From Facklamia languida CCUG 37842 (GTDB taxonomy: Bacteria > Bacillota > Bacilli > Lactobacillales > Aerococcaceae), in assembly GCF_000245795.1 (NCBI RefSeq), contig NZ_JH601133.1, positions 564,788 through 628,787 on the forward strand: a stretch of DNA of 64,000 bases, given 5' to 3'. Every line of letters begins with the position of its first letter. Positions within the stretch are counted from its first letter, which is position 1. The notes under the pieces are model-generated. The model was given only the letters and a program-made list of their open reading frames with translations. It did no database searches and was not told where the DNA came from. A program made the position numbers and the translations under genes. Positions 6,971 to 14,249 of the stretch are shown here, one piece after another.

Positions 6971-6996
6971 ACGCAGTAGTATTTACACTACTGCGC
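6971..6996 (-). terminator. Terminator of pstS
   Basis: A CGCAGTAGT/ACTACTGCG stem with a 6-nt loop is followed on the minus strand by a T-run. It lies about 60 nt downstream of the pstS stop. Confidence 0.85.
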
Positions 6997-7054: not shown

Positions 7055-8158
7055 TTATTTAGCGTCTGCCCAATCAGTAATTTCTCCTAAGAAGATTCCA
7101 CGAATTGTTTCAAGAGATAATTCTTCAACAGGGTTTTCGTTGTTCACTACGACTGCGATTCCGTCTGTAGCAATTACTTTTTGCTCAAGTGCTGCTGCTT
7201 CTTCTTCTTTTAACTCACGTGAAGCCATTCCTAAGTCAGCTGTTCCATTCATAGCAGCTTCCATACCAGCAGATGAACCATTTGAAGTAACGTTAATTTC
7301 AACGTTAGGTTGTACAGCCTTGTAAGCTTCAGCTAATTTTTCAATTAATGGAGAAACTGAAGTAGATCCAACAACTTCAATTGTTCCTTCTAATTCTTCA
7401 GTTGCTTCATAAGCAGGAAGGCTATCAATGCGTGAACCTTCTTCAGCTGCTTCTTCTGTTTCTTCTTCAGCCGCTGCTTCTTCTGTTTCTTCTTCAGCCG
7501 CTGCTTCTTCTGTTTCTTCTTCAGCCGCTGCTTCTTCTGTTTCTTCTTCAGCTGCTGCTTCTTCTGTTTCTTCTTCAGCTGCTGCTTCTTCTGTTTCTTC
7601 TTCAGCTGCTGCTTCTTCTGTTTCTTCTTCAGCTGCTGCTTCTTCTGTTTCTTCTTCAGCTGCTGCTTCTTCAACTACTGCAATGTATCCTTCTTCTTCA
7701 ACAATTGTTTGTCCATCTTTAGACATGATGAAGTCTAAGAAATCAGCTGTAACATCTGATAATTCTTCTTCCTTATTCCAAGCCACGTTAAATGGACGTG
7801 CGATTGGGTAAGAACCAGCAGTGATTTCTTCTGGAGTTGCTTCAGCTCCATCAACCTTAACAGCTTTAACTGAATCATCTAATGAACCTAAAGAAATGTA
7901 ACCAATTGCAGAAGGATCTCCTGCTACAGTTGTAATAACACCTGAAGTTTGGTTTTGGATTGCTGCAGATGAAGTTGTTAAGTCATTTCCATCTTCGTCT
8001 GTTACTTCAACGATCTCAACGAATGCTCCACGAGTTCCTGAACCATCTTCACGAGAGATAACATTAATTGCGCCTTCTTGTGCGAATGCTGGTGTTACTG
8101 CAGCTACGCCAAGACCTGCAACTGCTAATAATGGTAAAGCCTTCAATGATTTTTTCAT
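7055..8158 (-). CDS. pstS: Phosphate-binding protein PstS, circularly permuted, with acidic repeat linker
   Basis: This is the extracytoplasmic phosphate receptor for PstCAB. Residues 1-26 form a signal peptide ending TPAFA, and there is no lipobox cysteine. Residues about 30-160 (INVISREDGSGTRGAF to IMSKDGQTIVEEEGYIAV) match the half that is C-terminal in ordinary PstS. Residues about 163-240 are eight copies of EEETEEAAA. Residues about 255-367 (GTIEVVGSTSVSPL to FLGEITDWADAK) match the usual N-terminal half, with phosphate-contact motifs GSTSVSP, SNGSSAG and ASRELK. The chain is thus a circular permutation. I used the ATG at 8158; the upstream in-frame GTG overlaps the AAGGAG site. A Pho-box promoter lies upstream, and the gene follows phoU. 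Confidence 0.9.
   Translation of the reverse strand: MKKSLKALPLLAVAGLGVAAVTPAFAQEGAINVISREDGSGTRGAFVEIVEVTDEDGNDLTTSSAAIQNQTSGVITTVAGDPSAIGYISLGSLDDSVKAVKVDGAEATPEEITAGSYPIARPFNVAWNKEEELSDVTADFLDFIMSKDGQTIVEEEGYIAVVEEAAAEEETEEAAAEEETEEAAAEEETEEAAAEEETEEAAAEEETEEAAAEEETEEAAAEEETEEAAAEEETEEAAEEGSRIDSLPAYEATEELEGTIEVVGSTSVSPLIEKLAEAYKAVQPNVEINVTSNGSSAGMEAAMNGTADLGMASRELKEEEAAALEQKVIATDGIAVVVNNENPVEELSLETIRGIFLGEITDWADAK
7446..7661 (-). repeat. Tandem 27-bp repeat, eight units, inside pstS
   Basis: Eight contiguous 27-bp units encode EEETEEAAA each. They are identical except for one silent position, C in the units at the low-coordinate end and T in the rest. No frame has a stop codon across the array, which creates spurious open frames on both strands. 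Confidence 0.95.
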
Positions 8159-8241
8159 GAATTCATACACTCCTTATGATATTGTCAGATTTACAATGAA
8201 ACATATGCCGACGCTGAACTCACTCAACGTTGCACATTTTC

Positions 8242-8284
8242 ATCATACACCACAATTGTAAATTTAGTGTAAATTTAATGTAAA
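8242..8284 (-). promoter_or_regulatory. Pho-box promoter of pstS
   Basis: On the minus strand three TTTACA repeats (8279-8284, 8268-8273, 8257-8262) recur every 11 nt. A -10 TATGAT (8242-8247) follows after a 9-nt gap. This is the PhoP-activated layout known from Bacillus. Confidence 0.8.
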
Positions 8285-8302
8285 ATTAAAGTTAAGAATA
8301 CA

Positions 8303-8962
8303 CTAGAGGTTCAAATCAACGATCGTTGCATCCTCTAAATAGATGATCCGCTCACAAATATTGGTGACATAATCCCCAATTCTCTCTAGCGAATTACCAA
8401 TCGACAAGTAATTAATTCCAGAGTTAATGATATCCCGATCATTTTCCATACGTGCAGCAGATTGTTTATATAATTTCTTAAGATTTGCATCTAACTGCTC
8501 ATCTTTTTCAGCAATGATACGCGCCTGATCTTTATCACGATTAATAAAGGCCGTCATTACTTGGTCCATCATTTCTAAAGTTAATTGTGCCATTTCATTA
8601 ATAATAGCTGCTAAGCTGTCTACTTTCTCTACTTCTCCATCTACACGTTCAATATTCTTTGCAATGGATACGGCGTGGTCTCCCATCCGCTCTAGGTCAC
8701 TCGAAATATTGATAACAGAAAAGATTAATCGCAAATCTTCAGCAACTGGTTGTTGAAGAGCGATCAAGCGGTAGGCCTCTTTTTCAATTTCATTTGCCAA
8801 ACGATTGACATTCTCATCTTCTGCTGATACTTTCGCCGCAATTTGTGTGTCGACTTGATTAAAAGCATTGATTGCTTGGTGCACTTGATCATTCACAGCT
8901 GTTGCTTGTTCAGACAACTTATTAGTGAATGCCTCTAAATCGCGCGTATAGATTTCTCTCAT
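8303..8962 (-). CDS. phoU: Phosphate transport regulator PhoU
   Basis: PhoU links the Pst transporter to the PhoR kinase and restrains phosphate uptake when phosphate is plentiful. The 219 residues contain the two expected three-helix PhoU repeats, marked by SSDLERMGDHAVSIAKNIER and GNSLERIGDYVTNICERI, which hold the metal-binding E/D positions. It is the last gene of pstC-pstA-pstB-phoU, 34 bp after pstB. A GGGGG-type ribosome site precedes the ATG. The Pho-box promoter of pstS begins just past its stop codon. Confidence 0.95.
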   Translation of the reverse strand: MREIYTRDLEAFTNKLSEQATAVNDQVHQAINAFNQVDTQIAAKVSAEDENVNRLANEIEKEAYRLIALQQPVAEDLRLIFSVINISSDLERMGDHAVSIAKNIERVDGEVEKVDSLAAIINEMAQLTLEMMDQVMTAFINRDKDQARIIAEKDEQLDANLKKLYKQSAARMENDRDIINSGINYLSIGNSLERIGDYVTNICERIIYLEDATIVDLNL

Positions 8963-8996: not shown

Positions 8997-9758
8997 TTAA
9001 CCGAAACGTCCAGAGATATAATCTTGAGTTTGGGCATTAGCAGGATTTGAGAAGATCGTCTCCGTCTCATCAAACTCTACAACAACCCCTTCATAGAAGA
9101 AAGCTGTTTTATCTGAAATACGTGCCGCTTGCTGCATGTTATGCGTCACAATCACTACTGTATATTTTGATTTGAGATCGTGAACGAGATCTTCGATCTT
9201 ATTTGTTGAGATAGGGTCTAAAGCGGATGTCGGTTCGTCCATCAGGATCACTTCTGGCTCATTCGCGATCGCACGGGCGATACAAATCCGTTGTTGCTGC
9301 CCTCCTGATACAGCGGTAGCATCTTGATGAAGCTTGTCCTTTACTTCATCCCAGATCGCCGCTCCTCGTAGAGACTCTTCCACGATTTGATCCAGTCTAT
9401 CCTTATCTTTAATCCCATGTGTCCTTGGACCATAGGCAATATTATCATAGATAGATTTAGGGAATGGATTAGGCTGTTGGAAAACCATCCCAACCCGCTT
9501 TCTTAAATCATTGACATCCATTCTTTTGTCATAAATATCCATGCCATCTAATTGAACAGATCCTTTAACTTTCGTACCAGGAGTCAGATCTTGCATACGA
9601 TTTAAAATTTTTAGAAAGGTTGATTTCCCACAACCAGAAGGACCAATAAAGGCCGTTACTAAATTCTCTTGAATATCCATGCTGATATTTTTTAAAGCGT
9701 GAAAATCGCCGTAATAGAAGTCTAGGTCTTTAATTAAAAATTTTGTATTATTTGCCAT
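8997..9758 (-). CDS. pstB: Phosphate ABC transporter ATP-binding protein PstB
   Basis: This is the ATPase of the high-affinity phosphate importer at the inner face of the membrane. Walker A is [14 protein letters not shown], the Q-loop is [16 protein letters not shown], the signature is [15 protein letters not shown] and Walker B is [14 protein letters not shown]. The switch histidine is in VVIVTHNM. The ATG at 9758 has AGGAGG eight bases upstream, giving 253 residues, the normal PstB length. A longer frame to 9809 would run into pstA. The spacing from pstA is one base, so translation is probably coupled. Confidence 0.95.
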
Positions 9759-9759
9759 A

Positions 9760-10575
9760 TTATTTTCCTCCTGCTCCCAACTTATTACCCAACCATGTTG
9801 ATAGCCCATTTATCAGTAGCACTAAAATAACTAAAACTGCACCTGTCGCATATGCTTCCTTCACGTGTAAACCTTCCGATGTTAGGACGTACATATGCGT
9901 AGCGAGTGTTCGCCCTGAACTAAGAAAGTTTTTGACCATTCCTGAAGAGGTTCCCATTGTATAAAGTAATGCAGCCGATTCTCCCACAATCCGTCCTGTT
10001 GCTAAAATCACACCAGATAGGATACCTGGCATGGCAACCGGTAGAACGACCGTAAAGATCGTTCTTAGTTTGCCGGCTCCTAGAGCCAAGGACCCCATTC
10101 TCAGCGAATTATTCACTGACAATAAGGCTTCTTCAGTCGCTGAAATGATAATCGGTAAGATCATAATCGTCAGCGTCAAAATCCCGGCAATATGAGAATA
10201 GGTCTTGAAAATCGTATTAACAAAGAATAACATCCCGAACAAACCGTAGACGATGGAAGGAACCGCCGCAAGGGTATCCGTTGCAAGTCGGATCCAGTAA
10301 ACAAAACGGTTTCCACGATCAGCATACTCGACTAGGTAAAAGGCAGTAAAAATCCCAATTGGCGCTGCTATTAAGAGAGAGAAAAGAATCATGATGAGCG
10401 TTGAAATAATAGCTGGCATCATCGAAACATTACTGGTCGTATAATTCCAGGCAAATAAGCCGGGATTCATAGCAGGCAAGCCATTCCAAAGAATAAAGGC
10501 CACGATATACAAGAGCATCCCCAAGGTGAAGAGGGCTGCTAGCCAAACTAAAAACCGTGTCAATTTAGCGCTCAT
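9760..10575 (-). CDS. pstA: Phosphate ABC transporter permease PstA
   Basis: This 271-residue membrane protein is one of the two channel-forming subunits. It has about six hydrophobic segments, beginning [20 protein letters not shown]. The permease (EAA-like) loop is [24 protein letters not shown]. The start codon overlaps the pstC stop in TAATG, showing translational coupling. It lies between pstC and pstB. Confidence 0.95.
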
Positions 10576-11483
10576 TAGTCTCGGTCTCCTTTCGCTTTAA
10601 TCCACATGAAGGTACTATTAATAATTAAAATAAAGATGAACAAAACAGAAGCGGTCATGATGAGAGCATGCTGATGATCACCAGAAGCATAGCCCATTTC
10701 AAGCACAATGTTCGTCGTCAATGTTCGCGTACCTTCAAAGATACTTGTCGCCAACCGTGGCTGATTTCCTGCAACCAGAACGACCGCCATGGTTTCACCG
10801 ATGGCACGACCGATCCCGAGAATAACCGCAGATAAAATCCCCGACTTAGCCGCTGGCACAATTACCCGCATGACTGACCGTTCATGAGTCGCACCCAGTC
10901 CCATAGAAGCATTATAATAATGTTTAGGCACCGCCCGAATAGCCGCCTCAGACAAGCCAATAATGGTAGGCAAGATCATAATACCCAAAAGAATCGAAGC
11001 CGTTACAATATGCATCCCATTATTATTCGGTAGAAACTTCAGATTTCTGAAGAAAGGAACAAAGATCTGGAGAGCAAAGAAACCATATACGATCGACGGG
11101 ATAGCCGCCATCATATTAACTGCTGGCTTGAGAATCTTATAGAGGAAAGGTGGGCAGAAATAAGCCATGAAGACTGCCGTTAGAACCCCAATTGGAACCC
11201 CTACAATAATCGCCCCAATTGTGACATAGATAGACCCTAGAATAAAGGGCATGATCCCGTATAAAGGCTCCTTCCATGAGGGCTGCCATTGTTGTCCAAG
11301 TAAGGTCTTAAGGAAACCATGGTCCATTAGGAAGGGGAGCCCGCCATCAAATTCCCAACCCGCTTTGGTCTTAACTCCACCAATAAAGATGAAATAAAAG
11401 ATCAAGAGTATAGATAAAATTGATAAAAGTGCACAAATCATGAAAACATATTTCATGATTTTCTCAACCGCTTTGCCTTGCAT
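10575..11483 (-). CDS. pstC: Phosphate ABC transporter permease PstC
   Basis: This is the partner permease of PstA, with 302 residues and about six membrane segments. The EAA-like coupling loop is ASMGLGATHERSVMRVIVPAAKSGI, preceded by PTIIGLSEAAIRAVP. The large second loop with many aromatic residues (EFDGGLPFLMDH) is typical of PstC. The ATG at 11483 has GGAGGAG seven bases upstream; extending in frame to 11540 would overlap the -10 region. It is the first gene of the pst operon behind a Pho-box promoter. Confidence 0.95.
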   Translation of the reverse strand: MQGKAVEKIMKYVFMICALLSILSILLIFYFIFIGGVKTKAGWEFDGGLPFLMDHGFLKTLLGQQWQPSWKEPLYGIMPFILGSIYVTIGAIIVGVPIGVLTAVFMAYFCPPFLYKILKPAVNMMAAIPSIVYGFFALQIFVPFFRNLKFLPNNNGMHIVTASILLGIMILPTIIGLSEAAIRAVPKHYYNASMGLGATHERSVMRVIVPAAKSGILSAVILGIGRAIGETMAVVLVAGNQPRLATSIFEGTRTLTTNIVLEMGYASGDHQHALIMTASVLFIFILIINSTFMWIKAKGDRD

Positions 11484-11542
11484 CTCAAAACTCCTCCAAT
11501 AATCAGTTTGTACTAGCATTTGCTGGATACTCATACGCATTC

Positions 11543-11585
11543 ATTGTACTCGAATTATGTAAATTATTTGTAAATTTAGAGTAAA
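11543..11585 (-). promoter_or_regulatory. Pho-box promoter of pstCAB-phoU
   Basis: The minus strand carries TTTACT, TTTACA and TTTACA at an 11-nt period (11558-11585). A 9-nt gap precedes the -10 TACAAT (11543-11548). The geometry is identical to the pstS promoter. Confidence 0.8.
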
Positions 11586-11706: not shown

Positions 11707-13479
11707 TTAATTGTAGGGAAGTGTAACGGTGAATCGCGTACCCACCCCCACTTGACTTTCGACTTCAATCTTACCATTCATGGTTTTGACTAGATTTCGA
11801 ACAATCGAAAGACCCAAACCGGTTCCTCCAGAATTCCGACTTCGATCCTTATTGACCCGATAAAAACGCTCAAAAATGCGATCAAGCTCATCTTCAGGAA
11901 TTCCGATTCCAGTATCTGCGACGATAAGCTCTACTTTCTTCTTCTTACCCTTAATCTGGATCGTAATGCGGCTATTCGCTTCTGAATAATTGATGGCATT
12001 ATCAATTAAGTTGGTCAAAATTTGTTCGAGTCGATGCTGATCACCTGTGTAGAGGGTAGACCCTTCGCTGACTAGCTTCACCTTAATATTCTTTGCCTTT
12101 AGCTTCTGTGAAAGAAAATCAACCATGTTTTGGGCAGCTTCGACTAAGTCGAAGGTCGCTCGCGCTTGAACATGGTTTTGCTTTTCTACACGGGACAACT
12201 CTAAAATATCCTCAACAATCATCTCTAACCGCTGACTTTCTTTGGCGATGATCCGGATAAATTTCTCGGATAACCCAGGTTCTTTAATCGCCCCATCGAG
12301 TAAGGTCTCAGCAAATCCTTTTATGGCAGTGATTGGCGTTCGCAATTCGTGCGAAGCATTGGCAACAAATTCAGAACGGACAGTCTCTAGCCTTCTAATT
12401 TCTGTAATGTCATACAATAGAACCAAGATAAACGGTTCAGACCGCTCACTTTCACGATAAGGTAAAATCGTTGCCTCTACAAACTTGGCCTGCGGCACAT
12501 AGATCTCAACTTCTTCTTGAATCGACATATGAGAACGTATCACATTATTGATTAAGTTGATCAATTGAAAGGATTTAATGACGCCTTGATAGGGCCGTCC
12601 CAATACCCCCGATTCGATCAATAAGATATCTTGTAGGGCAGGGTTAAACATATCAATATGGCCCTGAGGATCAATTACCAGTACCCCTAAGTTAATATTC
12701 TCTAAAAGCAGGGAGTATTGTTGCTGACCCGCATAGACTTCGTTCCGTTCTTGGTCGAGATATTCGACCAATTGGTTCACCTGGTGGCCAAGCCGATTGA
12801 CTTCTGGAATAGAGTGACTAATATACTCATACGAATAATCTTCTTGCAGTAGCCCCCTAACCCCTTCTTCAATCGACCGCAGGGGTTGGGAAACCTTTCG
12901 GGTAAAAATTCTGAGCAAGACGACAATCGTGACCCACTCAATCACAAAACTTATTAATAAGGTCGTCCAAAATTTTATCCAGAGGGGCCGGTAAAAAGTA
13001 GTCGGACGATATTCAATCATCCAGATCCGATCTTTGCCTTCATCTACCACCGGCATTGCATTAAAATAATGAGAACTTGTCCGCCAGTTAATAATGGGGT
13101 CAGAAGTCGTGTTTTTTTCTTTAAGGTGGTCACGGATCGGCTGATAGTTCACTTGACCCTTACGGTAATTGTAATTGGTCCACAGGGGTTCGCGGATGGT
13201 CTGTCCATCGGTAATCTGGTCTTGACTAATCAGAATCGCATATATATCTTCGCTTCCAATCTGGTTAGTCTCTTGCAATAAGTCATGAGAAGGGGCGTCA
13301 TAGTCCAAGCCCTGCATGGTTCGAAGGACTTGCACTTGATTGGCCAGATGCTGATTTAAACCCTCTAGGATCATGTGGTTGATCTGGTCTTGCCAGACCC
13401 AGAAGAAAAAGATGGAAGCCAGCAAGGCACTGATCATGGCGACCATGACCTGATTGCCGCGTTTTACGTACAATCTCAT
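11707..13479 (-). CDS. phoR: Phosphate-sensing membrane histidine kinase PhoR
   Basis: This sensor kinase is inferred to phosphorylate the response regulator encoded just upstream. The 590 residues run in order: membrane segment near 12-30, extracytoplasmic region to about 165, second membrane segment TTLLISFVIEWVTIVVLL, HAMP linker, PAS domain (LLENINLGVLVIDPQGHIDM), HisKA with NASHELRTPITAIKGFAE, and HATPase with DNAINYS, DTGIGIPEDEL and GGTGLGLSIV. The start overlaps phoP by 4 bp. The Pho function rests on the adjacent pst operon and its Pho boxes; by sequence alone it could be another PhoR/WalK-type kinase. Confidence 0.85.
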   Translation of the reverse strand: MRLYVKRGNQVMVAMISALLASIFFFWVWQDQINHMILEGLNQHLANQVQVLRTMQGLDYDAPSHDLLQETNQIGSEDIYAILISQDQITDGQTIREPLWTNYNYRKGQVNYQPIRDHLKEKNTTSDPIINWRTSSHYFNAMPVVDEGKDRIWMIEYRPTTFYRPLWIKFWTTLLISFVIEWVTIVVLLRIFTRKVSQPLRSIEEGVRGLLQEDYSYEYISHSIPEVNRLGHQVNQLVEYLDQERNEVYAGQQQYSLLLENINLGVLVIDPQGHIDMFNPALQDILLIESGVLGRPYQGVIKSFQLINLINNVIRSHMSIQEEVEIYVPQAKFVEATILPYRESERSEPFILVLLYDITEIRRLETVRSEFVANASHELRTPITAIKGFAETLLDGAIKEPGLSEKFIRIIAKESQRLEMIVEDILELSRVEKQNHVQARATFDLVEAAQNMVDFLSQKLKAKNIKVKLVSEGSTLYTGDQHRLEQILTNLIDNAINYSEANSRITIQIKGKKKKVELIVADTGIGIPEDELDRIFERFYRVNKDRSRNSGGTGLGLSIVRNLVKTMNGKIEVESQVGVGTRFTVTLPYN

Positions 13480-14249
13480 TCTGTTGGCACCTCAAATTTG
13501 TAGCCGAAACCGCGAACTGTCTTAATATATTCAGGTTTTTTGGTGTCTCTTTCAATCTTCTCACGTAAATGGGAAATATGAACGTCCACGATCCGAGTCT
13601 CCCCAGCATAATCAAAATTCCAAATATTATTCAGGAGCTGGTCGCGACTCAAGATTCTTCCCTTTCTCATCGCCATATACATCAAGAGTTCAAACTCTTT
13701 GGGGGTCATTTCAATGAGTTCCCCTCTAACCTTAACTTCATACCGATCCGGATGAATCTCAATTTCACCAAAGGTCATCTGTTGGTCTTGACTGATCGGA
13801 CTATCGTCTGCATCCAGAGGGATAATGGTCAAACGCTCACCCTCTTCCGCTCGTCCTTCCTCTTCCCGTCTTGAAGCTCCTTCAATTCCGACCCGTCGTC
13901 CAATAGCCTTAATTCGAGCAATGACCTCTCTAGGACTAAAAGGCTTGGTCATATAATCATCCGCACCAAGTTCCAGACCGATGATTTTATCGTACTCGTC
14001 GTCTTTAGCAGTAAGCATAAGAATAGGAGTTTCAATTTTTTCTTGCCGGACGCGGCGGCAGACATCCATCCCGTCCATCTTAGGTAGCATAATATCTAGG
14101 ATAATAAAATCGAAATTGCCTTTTTTTATCAACTTGTAAGCCGTCTTCCCATCTTCTGCTGTCACAACCTCGTACCCTGCTTGAGTCAGATTATATTCTA
14201 AAAGCATTAAAATCGACTGCTCATCATCTACAACCAGTATCTTTTTCAT
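13476..14249 (-). CDS. phoP: OmpR-family response regulator PhoP
   Basis: This DNA-binding regulator likely binds the TTTACA Pho boxes in front of pstC and pstS. The receiver domain has LVVDDEQSILML, the phosphoacceptor in DFIILDIMLPKMDG and the switch lysine in DDYMTKPFSP. The C-terminal winged helix includes LTPKEF-like MTPKEFELLMYMAM, the recognition helix DVHISHLREKIE and VRGFGYKF. A charged linker of about 40 residues (GASRREEEGRAEEGERLT) is longer than in Bacillus PhoP. The promoter is weakly visible: an extended -10 TGTTAGAAT lies near 14290. Confidence 0.85.
   Translation of the reverse strand: MKKILVVDDEQSILMLLEYNLTQAGYEVVTAEDGKTAYKLIKKGNFDFIILDIMLPKMDGMDVCRRVRQEKIETPILMLTAKDDEYDKIIGLELGADDYMTKPFSPREVIARIKAIGRRVGIEGASRREEEGRAEEGERLTIIPLDADDSPISQDQQMTFGEIEIHPDRYEVKVRGELIEMTPKEFELLMYMAMRKGRILSRDQLLNNIWNFDYAGETRIVDVHISHLREKIERDTKKPEYIKTVRGFGYKFEVPTE

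Follow-up and report, generated by a model that had tools for sequence, protein, structure and literature searches.

The window (the whole 64-kb stretch of DNA that was analysed) carries a pst operon on its minus strand. The genes follow one another in the order phoP, phoR, pstC, pstA, pstB, phoU and pstS, and it is the last that is unusual.

13476 to 14249, minus strand: phoP-like response regulator, named by its position beside pst
11707 to 13479, minus strand: phoR-like histidine kinase, named by its position beside pst
11558 to 11585, minus strand: PhoP-box-like repeats upstream of pstC, with one mismatch
10575 to 11540, minus strand: pstC, permease (BPD_transp_1), named by position
9760 to 10575, minus strand: pstA, permease (BPD_transp_1), named by position
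8997 to 9809, minus strand: pstB, ABC ATPase (ABC_tran), named by position
8303 to 8962, minus strand: phoU
8257 to 8295, minus strand: PhoP-box-like direct repeats upstream of pstS, TTTACA-type hexamers with 11-bp spacing
7055 to 8158, minus strand: circularly permuted pstS, 367 aa from the ATG at 8158 (the GTG at 8170 adds 4 residues)
8081 to 8158, minus strand: signal peptide, residues 1-26, AFA/QEG, of the signal-peptidase-I type by eye and without a lipobox cysteine
7673 to 8074, minus strand: native C-terminal half, residues 29-162, with the SREDGSGTR loop
7439 to 7672, minus strand: acidic repeat linker, residues 163-240, net charge -44, low pLDDT
7058 to 7393, minus strand: native N-terminal half, residues 256-367 (GSTSVSP ... 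NGSSAG ... MASRE ... EITDW)
6972 to 6995, reported on the plus strand only: hairpin 3' of pstS, a candidate terminator (1 found, 1.1 expected)

The pstS gene is a single open frame on the minus strand from 7055 to 8170, with a GTG at 8170, the first ATG at 8158 and the stop at 7055. There are two numberings for the protein, one of 371 residues from the GTG and one of 367 residues from the ATG. From the N terminus the order is signal peptide, REDGSGTR half, a 78-residue acidic repeat, and then the GSTSVSP half, which ends at ITDW. The first-pass annotation had claimed that this is a circularly permuted PstS, with the REDGSGTR half first and the GSTSVSP half last. Profile and sequence matches bear this out. 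In a phmmer comparison with the ordinary PstS 4q8r, residues 263-369 pair with 5-112 and residues 32-165 pair with 117-245 (371 numbering). The pieces are crossed relative to the ordinary protein, therefore the halves are swapped. Against 4H1X the match is colinear. Pfam PBP_like_2 scores 124.3 bits against a cut-off of 27 in two stretches, so both halves match. The best of these stretches is residues 258-369 (371 numbering) against positions 6-125 of the 267 in the profile. A search of the genome gives the same picture, since in the direction of coding the match to the end of the PBP_like_2 profile (128-266) precedes the match to its start (6-126).

The protein does not reach the cut-off of TIGR02136 (205.3 against 206.6 bits) because its match is split in two stretches. 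All 5 of the permuted proteins tested against this model fall below 206.6 bits, with a range of 142.9-205.3. This cut-off is a naming threshold for a model of the ordinary order, and the window protein is filed as a permuted PstS and not as an ordinary one.

It is conceivable that the order is an artefact of assembly or annotation, or that the gene is broken. We found nothing that supports this. The gene is one open frame, and an assembly error is unlikely because a match in the same order covers the query in 5 of 5 genomes of the genus, its own included (in G004 as two overlapping pieces). The order is also that of the best 80 named loci and of the crystal structure 4H1X, so we give an artefact a negligible probability. 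The first-pass annotation had allowed that a second, ordinary PstS might be used instead. No ordinary PstS was found in the 1.72-Mb single-contig genome, where the two Pfam matches above cut-off are one and the same permuted protein. A third match, below cut-off, was considered as a second PstS and rejected; it is a LysR-type regulator by sequence.

An AlphaFold model was built on an alignment of 44 permuted sequences. Its mean pLDDT is 83.2. The block means are 95-98 in the first half (31-160) and 93-98 in the second (251-367), and the low values are in the signal peptide and the linker. We are confident that the two halves, as modelled, join into one binding-protein fold. The earlier concern that they might not do so has fallen away, given a confident single-fold model that matches 4H1X from end to end. 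VIA-align puts the model on 4H1X with a Z of 35.9, at 1.4 Å over 254 residues with 50% identity. The second match is 1twy (Z 12.1, 136 residues), and among the listed matches ordinary PstS proteins align over 79-141 residues. The top Foldseek match is again 4h1x (E 1.3e-32, TM 0.95 by target), and among the matches listed there ordinary PstS proteins align over 52-144 columns, about half the length or less. The best phmmer match in the PDB is 4h1x_A (pstS 2), in one order, with 31-168 paired to 7-145 and 257-368 paired to 151-262 (371 numbering). Alignment from end to end with one structure and half at a time with the others is, for a predicted model, the signature of a circular permutation.

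The model also suggests where the chain was cut. It has a long strand at 324-339, a helix at 349-357 and the chain end at 367, and the new N terminus leads into a strand at 32-36. In the ordinary CpPstS the hinge is made of strands beta4 and beta5 (PMC12421899). We take strand 324-339 to be the counterpart of those hinge strands. The new ends would then lie within lobe 2, about one helix or about 28 residues beyond this hinge strand. Both chain ends would contribute to lobe 2, and lobe 1 would run uninterrupted through the linker and hold the joined native ends. The first-pass annotation had put the new ends at the domain-crossover loop, and this has to be corrected, as the model places them about one helix past the crossover. 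Its other suggestion, a possible change in the docking of the receptor to PstCA, is likewise not borne out.

The ligand loops appear to have come through the rearrangement intact. R36, E37, G39, S40, G41, T42 and R43 are invariant in 44 of 44 aligned permuted sequences, the window's included, and so are G264, S265, S267, S295, S313 and R314. The key residues are thus kept in the SREDGSGT, GSTS, SS and SR loops. The residues matching R36, S40, G41, T42, S267 and S295 presumably contact phosphate in E. coli PstS. We would expect phosphate to sit in the cleft and the two lobes to close as in ordinary PstS.

The linker is a different matter. Its DNA is a 27-bp unit repeated 8.4 times with 99% matches (7446-7672), and it contributes -44 to the net charge of -79 of the mature protein. 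The first-pass annotation had called the long acidic linker unusual, and it is: the junction is lengthened in 7 of 138 distinct permuted PstS (more than 155 residues; L033 only slightly, at 159). The distance between motifs across the junction is 228 in the window protein against a median of 146 in its relatives. Such a linker could let the halves of different chains pair, which would make the protein a domain-swapped dimer. The 88 residues that separate the aligned stretches (169-256, 371 numbering), against 5 in 4H1X, would give room for this. However, the relatives have short junctions, 4H1X included, and the single-chain model is confident, so we consider a domain swap very improbable. We prefer a single chain in which the linker is probably a tolerated, fast-changing insertion at a permissive surface joint, although it may perhaps help to keep an unlipidated PstS near the cell surface.

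By eye, no lipobox cysteine was found after the signal peptide of the window PstS. Across 138 distinct permuted PstS, with one more frame set aside for lacking the motif, a regular expression detects a lipobox in 109 and none in 29, a rule that misses some, for at least L163 and L169 look like lipoproteins by eye. The 29 without a lipobox include 7 with a junction above 155 and 3 with an acidic C-terminal tail (L026, L031 and L035), which makes 10. None of the 109 with a lipobox has a long junction and none has an acidic tail. It must be said that all ten come from the window's own family, which means these counts are not independent. The association of acidic linker and lipobox loss may be one historical event, because the acidic linker is limited to relatives within one family. 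Our reading is that, after the permutation, the junction of this lineage gained an acidic repeat and the lipid anchor was lost. In L026, L031 and L035, which belong to a related genus, the acidic stretch of PstS is a C-terminal tail and not an internal linker.

The loss of the lipoprotein pathway was considered as the cause of the missing lipobox and rejected, since genes for both Lgt and LspA are in the genome. The linker DNA is similar to 10 other places in the same genome. Seven proteins encoded there have Glu-rich C-terminal tails, a signal-like N terminus and no lipobox, the last two judged by eye.

L209, 269-2431: Glu-rich-tailed protein
L209, 2709-4868: Glu-rich-tailed protein
L211, 279-1874: Glu-rich-tailed protein
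L212, 1256-2311: Glu-rich-tailed protein
L213, 736-1902: Glu-rich-tailed protein
L214, 1423-2454: Glu-rich-tailed protein
L216, 941-1894: Glu-rich-tailed protein

By Pfam the seven are two SBP_bac_5 proteins, an alkaline phosphatase, an NlpA-family protein, a transglutaminase-core protein, a PPIC-type isomerase and one protein with no Pfam match. The remaining three places are a lipoprotein-like frame (L210), a protein with an S1 domain and no visible signal (L207), and one with no comparably acidic frame (L215). Glu-rich segments are not confined to unlipidated exported proteins, because L210 and L207 match as well. L207 had been a candidate for FtsY, and this was rejected when Pfam found S1 domains. 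All six SBP_bac_5 proteins found in the genome (L217-L222) lack a visible lipobox, the Lgt and LspA genes notwithstanding. Three of the six have acidic tails, two of these being among the tailed seven. The acidic linker and the missing lipobox are traits of this lineage.

A protein with a signal sequence, no lipobox by eye and a net charge of -79 once mature might be released from the cell. It would then be a secreted phosphate scavenger or a surface protein and not the receptor of an importer. The location of the gene speaks against this, since it is next to the pst operon, and no other PstS was found in the genome. The SBP_bac_5 proteins speak against it too, since with 6 of 6 lacking a visible lipobox unlipidated receptors look normal in this genome. 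PhoP-box-like repeats also lie upstream of both pstS and pstC. We consider a released scavenger unlikely and return to a receptor for the adjacent importer.

The repeats are of the TTTACA type, which we take to resemble the B. subtilis PhoP box. The site upstream of pstS (8257 to 8295) holds one exact three-hexamer match and an overlapping one with two mismatches. With the site upstream of pstC this makes three matches with at most two mismatches (two of them overlapping), and they are the only ones in the 64-kb window, where 0.01 is expected by chance. Exact matches occur in 16 of 222 loci, several of which are copies of one place. Transcription of pstS is probably under PhoP control, judging from the sequence, because the box-like repeats are accompanied by adjacent two-component genes. 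Consensus scans of the window for promoters and terminators gave no excess over chance.

Gene order around permuted pstS was examined in the best 80 named loci. The next pst gene downstream is pstC in 76 of the 80 (75 of them have it no more than 450 bp away, and in L121 the distance is 992 bp). In two, L073 and L074, pstS comes after phoU as in the window, and in all three of these pstS is last in the operon. Genus members G004 and G009 have permuted PstS proteins identical to those of Facklamia sp. 7083-14-GEN3 (L073) and Ignavigranum ruoffiae (L074), respectively; both genera belong to the Aerococcaceae, and on this basis the window is described as Facklamia-like. No pst genes were found near the permuted pstS in the last two, L128 and L143, the latter at a contig end. 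In L128 (Intestinimonas butyriciproducens) the gene lies at 7794-8852, and no pst genes were detected within about 8 kb on either side. Two further loci have more than one pstS. In Desemzia sp. (L138, 7905-13321) a permuted pstS operon comes first, and behind it lies an ordinary pstS that has a pstC, a pstA and a pstB of its own. Anaerococcus jeddahensis (L085, 7818-9771) has two tandem permuted pstS before pstC.

The first-pass annotation had suggested that a similar order probably exists in other Firmicutes, which was correct and too modest. Split and reversed pairs of Pfam matches, judged by eye from the match coordinates, put a permuted PstS in 43 of the 60 genomes of the family (44 proteins). 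With a threshold of E 1e-5 for calling no match, 42 of these genomes have the permuted form only, one has both (G018), 9 have the ordinary form only and 8 have no match. In the order, a permuted-PstS profile (E 1e-45 or better) matches 54 of 198 genomes and 22 of 55 genera, the window's own included. In the sample of the class it is 5 of 299, again with its own, and one of these (G241) lies outside the order. In the sample of the phylum it is 21 of 398, own included, or 18 when two double PstS and one partial match (G759) are taken away. Two further class searches were centred on other genomes. Around G825 there were 5 matches in 31 genomes at E 1e-75, and around G523 the Pfam family matched in 24 of 27 genomes, 10 of them with a reversed pair by eye. 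Some groups thus have the permuted form often, and many others have it rarely or not at all.

In a scan of named genomes at least 592 stretches matched, at least 428 of them relatives, and the best 80 were kept. All 80 have the permuted order, but since the ranking was by likeness to a query that is itself permuted, this is not a prevalence. Among the names in their titles are Streptococcus mitis, S. agalactiae, Blautia, Dorea and other Lachnospiraceae, as well as Slackia, Adlercreutzia and other Eggerthellaceae, Anaerococcus, Peptoniphilus and Treponema, although many of the records are MAGs whose labels may be wrong.

For the trees, 196 frames were found, of which 162 are permuted, 28 ordinary, 2 double and 4 other. 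The 4 others, L031 and L042 (one permuted protein), short pieces and exact duplicates were dropped. This left 169 rows, made up of 137 permuted (four from Streptococcus, L090, L097, L110 and L131, with 4H1X itself left out), 28 ordinary and 4 copies from the doubles. The permuted rows, all 137 of them, fall in one clade with a moderate local support of 0.896, although the comparison set is small, with 28 ordinary rows that come almost entirely from genomes of the window's own phylum. An IQ-TREE run on 40 permuted rows (the window and 39 random ones) and 32 others gives the permuted clade an ultrafast bootstrap of 99. We infer that the permuted family arose once within the sampled sequences.

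Another route to the same order would be a chimera, in which halves from two different PstS paralogues were fused in swapped order. Some genomes of the family, such as G054 and G008, do have two ordinary pstS genes that could have supplied the material. Against this, trees made from each half give the permuted proteins as one clade (0.818 for the N half and 0.899 for the C half), and we regard a chimera as quite unlikely.

For the permuted family the simplest origin is that pstS was duplicated in tandem, the copies fused and the outer halves were then lost, and we suppose that this is what happened here. Tandem PstS-PstS fusions do exist. There is one in each of two genomes of one genus, L170 (1105-2697, minus strand, 531 aa) and L171 (1105-2736, minus strand, 544 aa), and a pstC-like gene is next in both. 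Each of the two encodes a pair of complete PstS in a single frame. Pfam was run on L171, whose two copies are 79% identical over 186 residues in their aligned parts. Going by its sequence, the middle of a double PstS reads as a permuted PstS, which is the stage expected on the way to permutation. The doubles were considered as direct ancestors of the permuted clade. This is not supported, as their copies group outside the clade in both the full tree and the IQ-TREE run. L170 and L171 are a parallel case, showing that the step happens and not that it was the route.

Taking sequence and model together, we argue that this pstS very probably encodes the permuted receptor of the adjacent PstCAB phosphate importer, and we mean this for the explanation as a whole. 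A broader reading can be proposed in which permuted PstS would be an unrecognised class of phosphate receptor, of single origin, spread across gut and mucosal bacteria. In the Facklamia lineage, several receptors would have given up the lipid anchor and be held at the cell surface by a polyanionic, Glu-rich segment instead. This segment would be internal in PstS because the permutation joined the native C and N termini. We put this broader reading forward as speculative, and as a whole it is doubtful.

The permuted receptor is of interest apart from this. The Pst importer amounts to a natural experiment on chain order, since the same type of transporter has receptors with lobes threaded in opposite ways. 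In 42 of 60 genomes of the family the permuted form is the only PstS found. That 5 of 5 tested fall below the NCBI cut-off for PstS may be why the permuted form went unremarked. With the fusions in L170 and L171, a duplication route to permutation becomes directly testable.

Our search of the open-access literature found no paper that describes a permutation of PstS and none that names 4H1X. The string 'permut' occurs 0 times in the excerpts of PMC4913102 and PMC12421899 that were available. The order itself is not new. It has been in the PDB since 2012 and is widespread, and what we did not find is a description of it in the literature.

The closest known system is 4H1X, the crystal structure of S. 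pneumoniae SP_2084 (PstS2), released by the PDB in 2012. SP_2084, which we take to be a lipoprotein, has the same permuted order as the window PstS and is colinear with it in sequence and structure. It differs at the junction, where only 5 residues separate the aligned stretches and there is no acidic repeat. The pneumococcus also has a second phosphate system, Pst1 (PMC4913102). Ordinary PstS proteins (TIGR02136 and TIGR00975; 4q8r, 4gd5, 4exl and 1ixh) share the two halves and the type of binding loops, and differ in the order of the halves.

Permutation is known elsewhere among binding proteins. TpMglB-2 (Tp0684) of Treponema pallidum, classed as 'Type Ic / Cluster Bc', is a naturally permuted binding protein of an ABC importer, and according to its authors the topology also occurs in other treponemes and in Gram-positives (PMC4990184). 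As the excerpted text of that paper has it, TpMglB-2 binds sugar, has a type I fold and is permuted in its N-lobe, which makes it a case independent of permuted PstS. The tether strain proposed there was considered as a reason for the PstS permutation and set aside. It fits poorly because the mature N terminus is about 10 residues from the SREDGSGT ligand loop, and because 29 of 138 permuted PstS have no lipobox by our rule. Relations by permutation among two-lobed binding proteins have also been reported for OpuAC of B. subtilis and the glycine-betaine-binding proteins (PMC2395249). OpuAC (2b4m_A) aligns with the PstS model at a Z of 9.8 and 4.4 Å over 215 residues with 12% identity, and its ligand is a different one.
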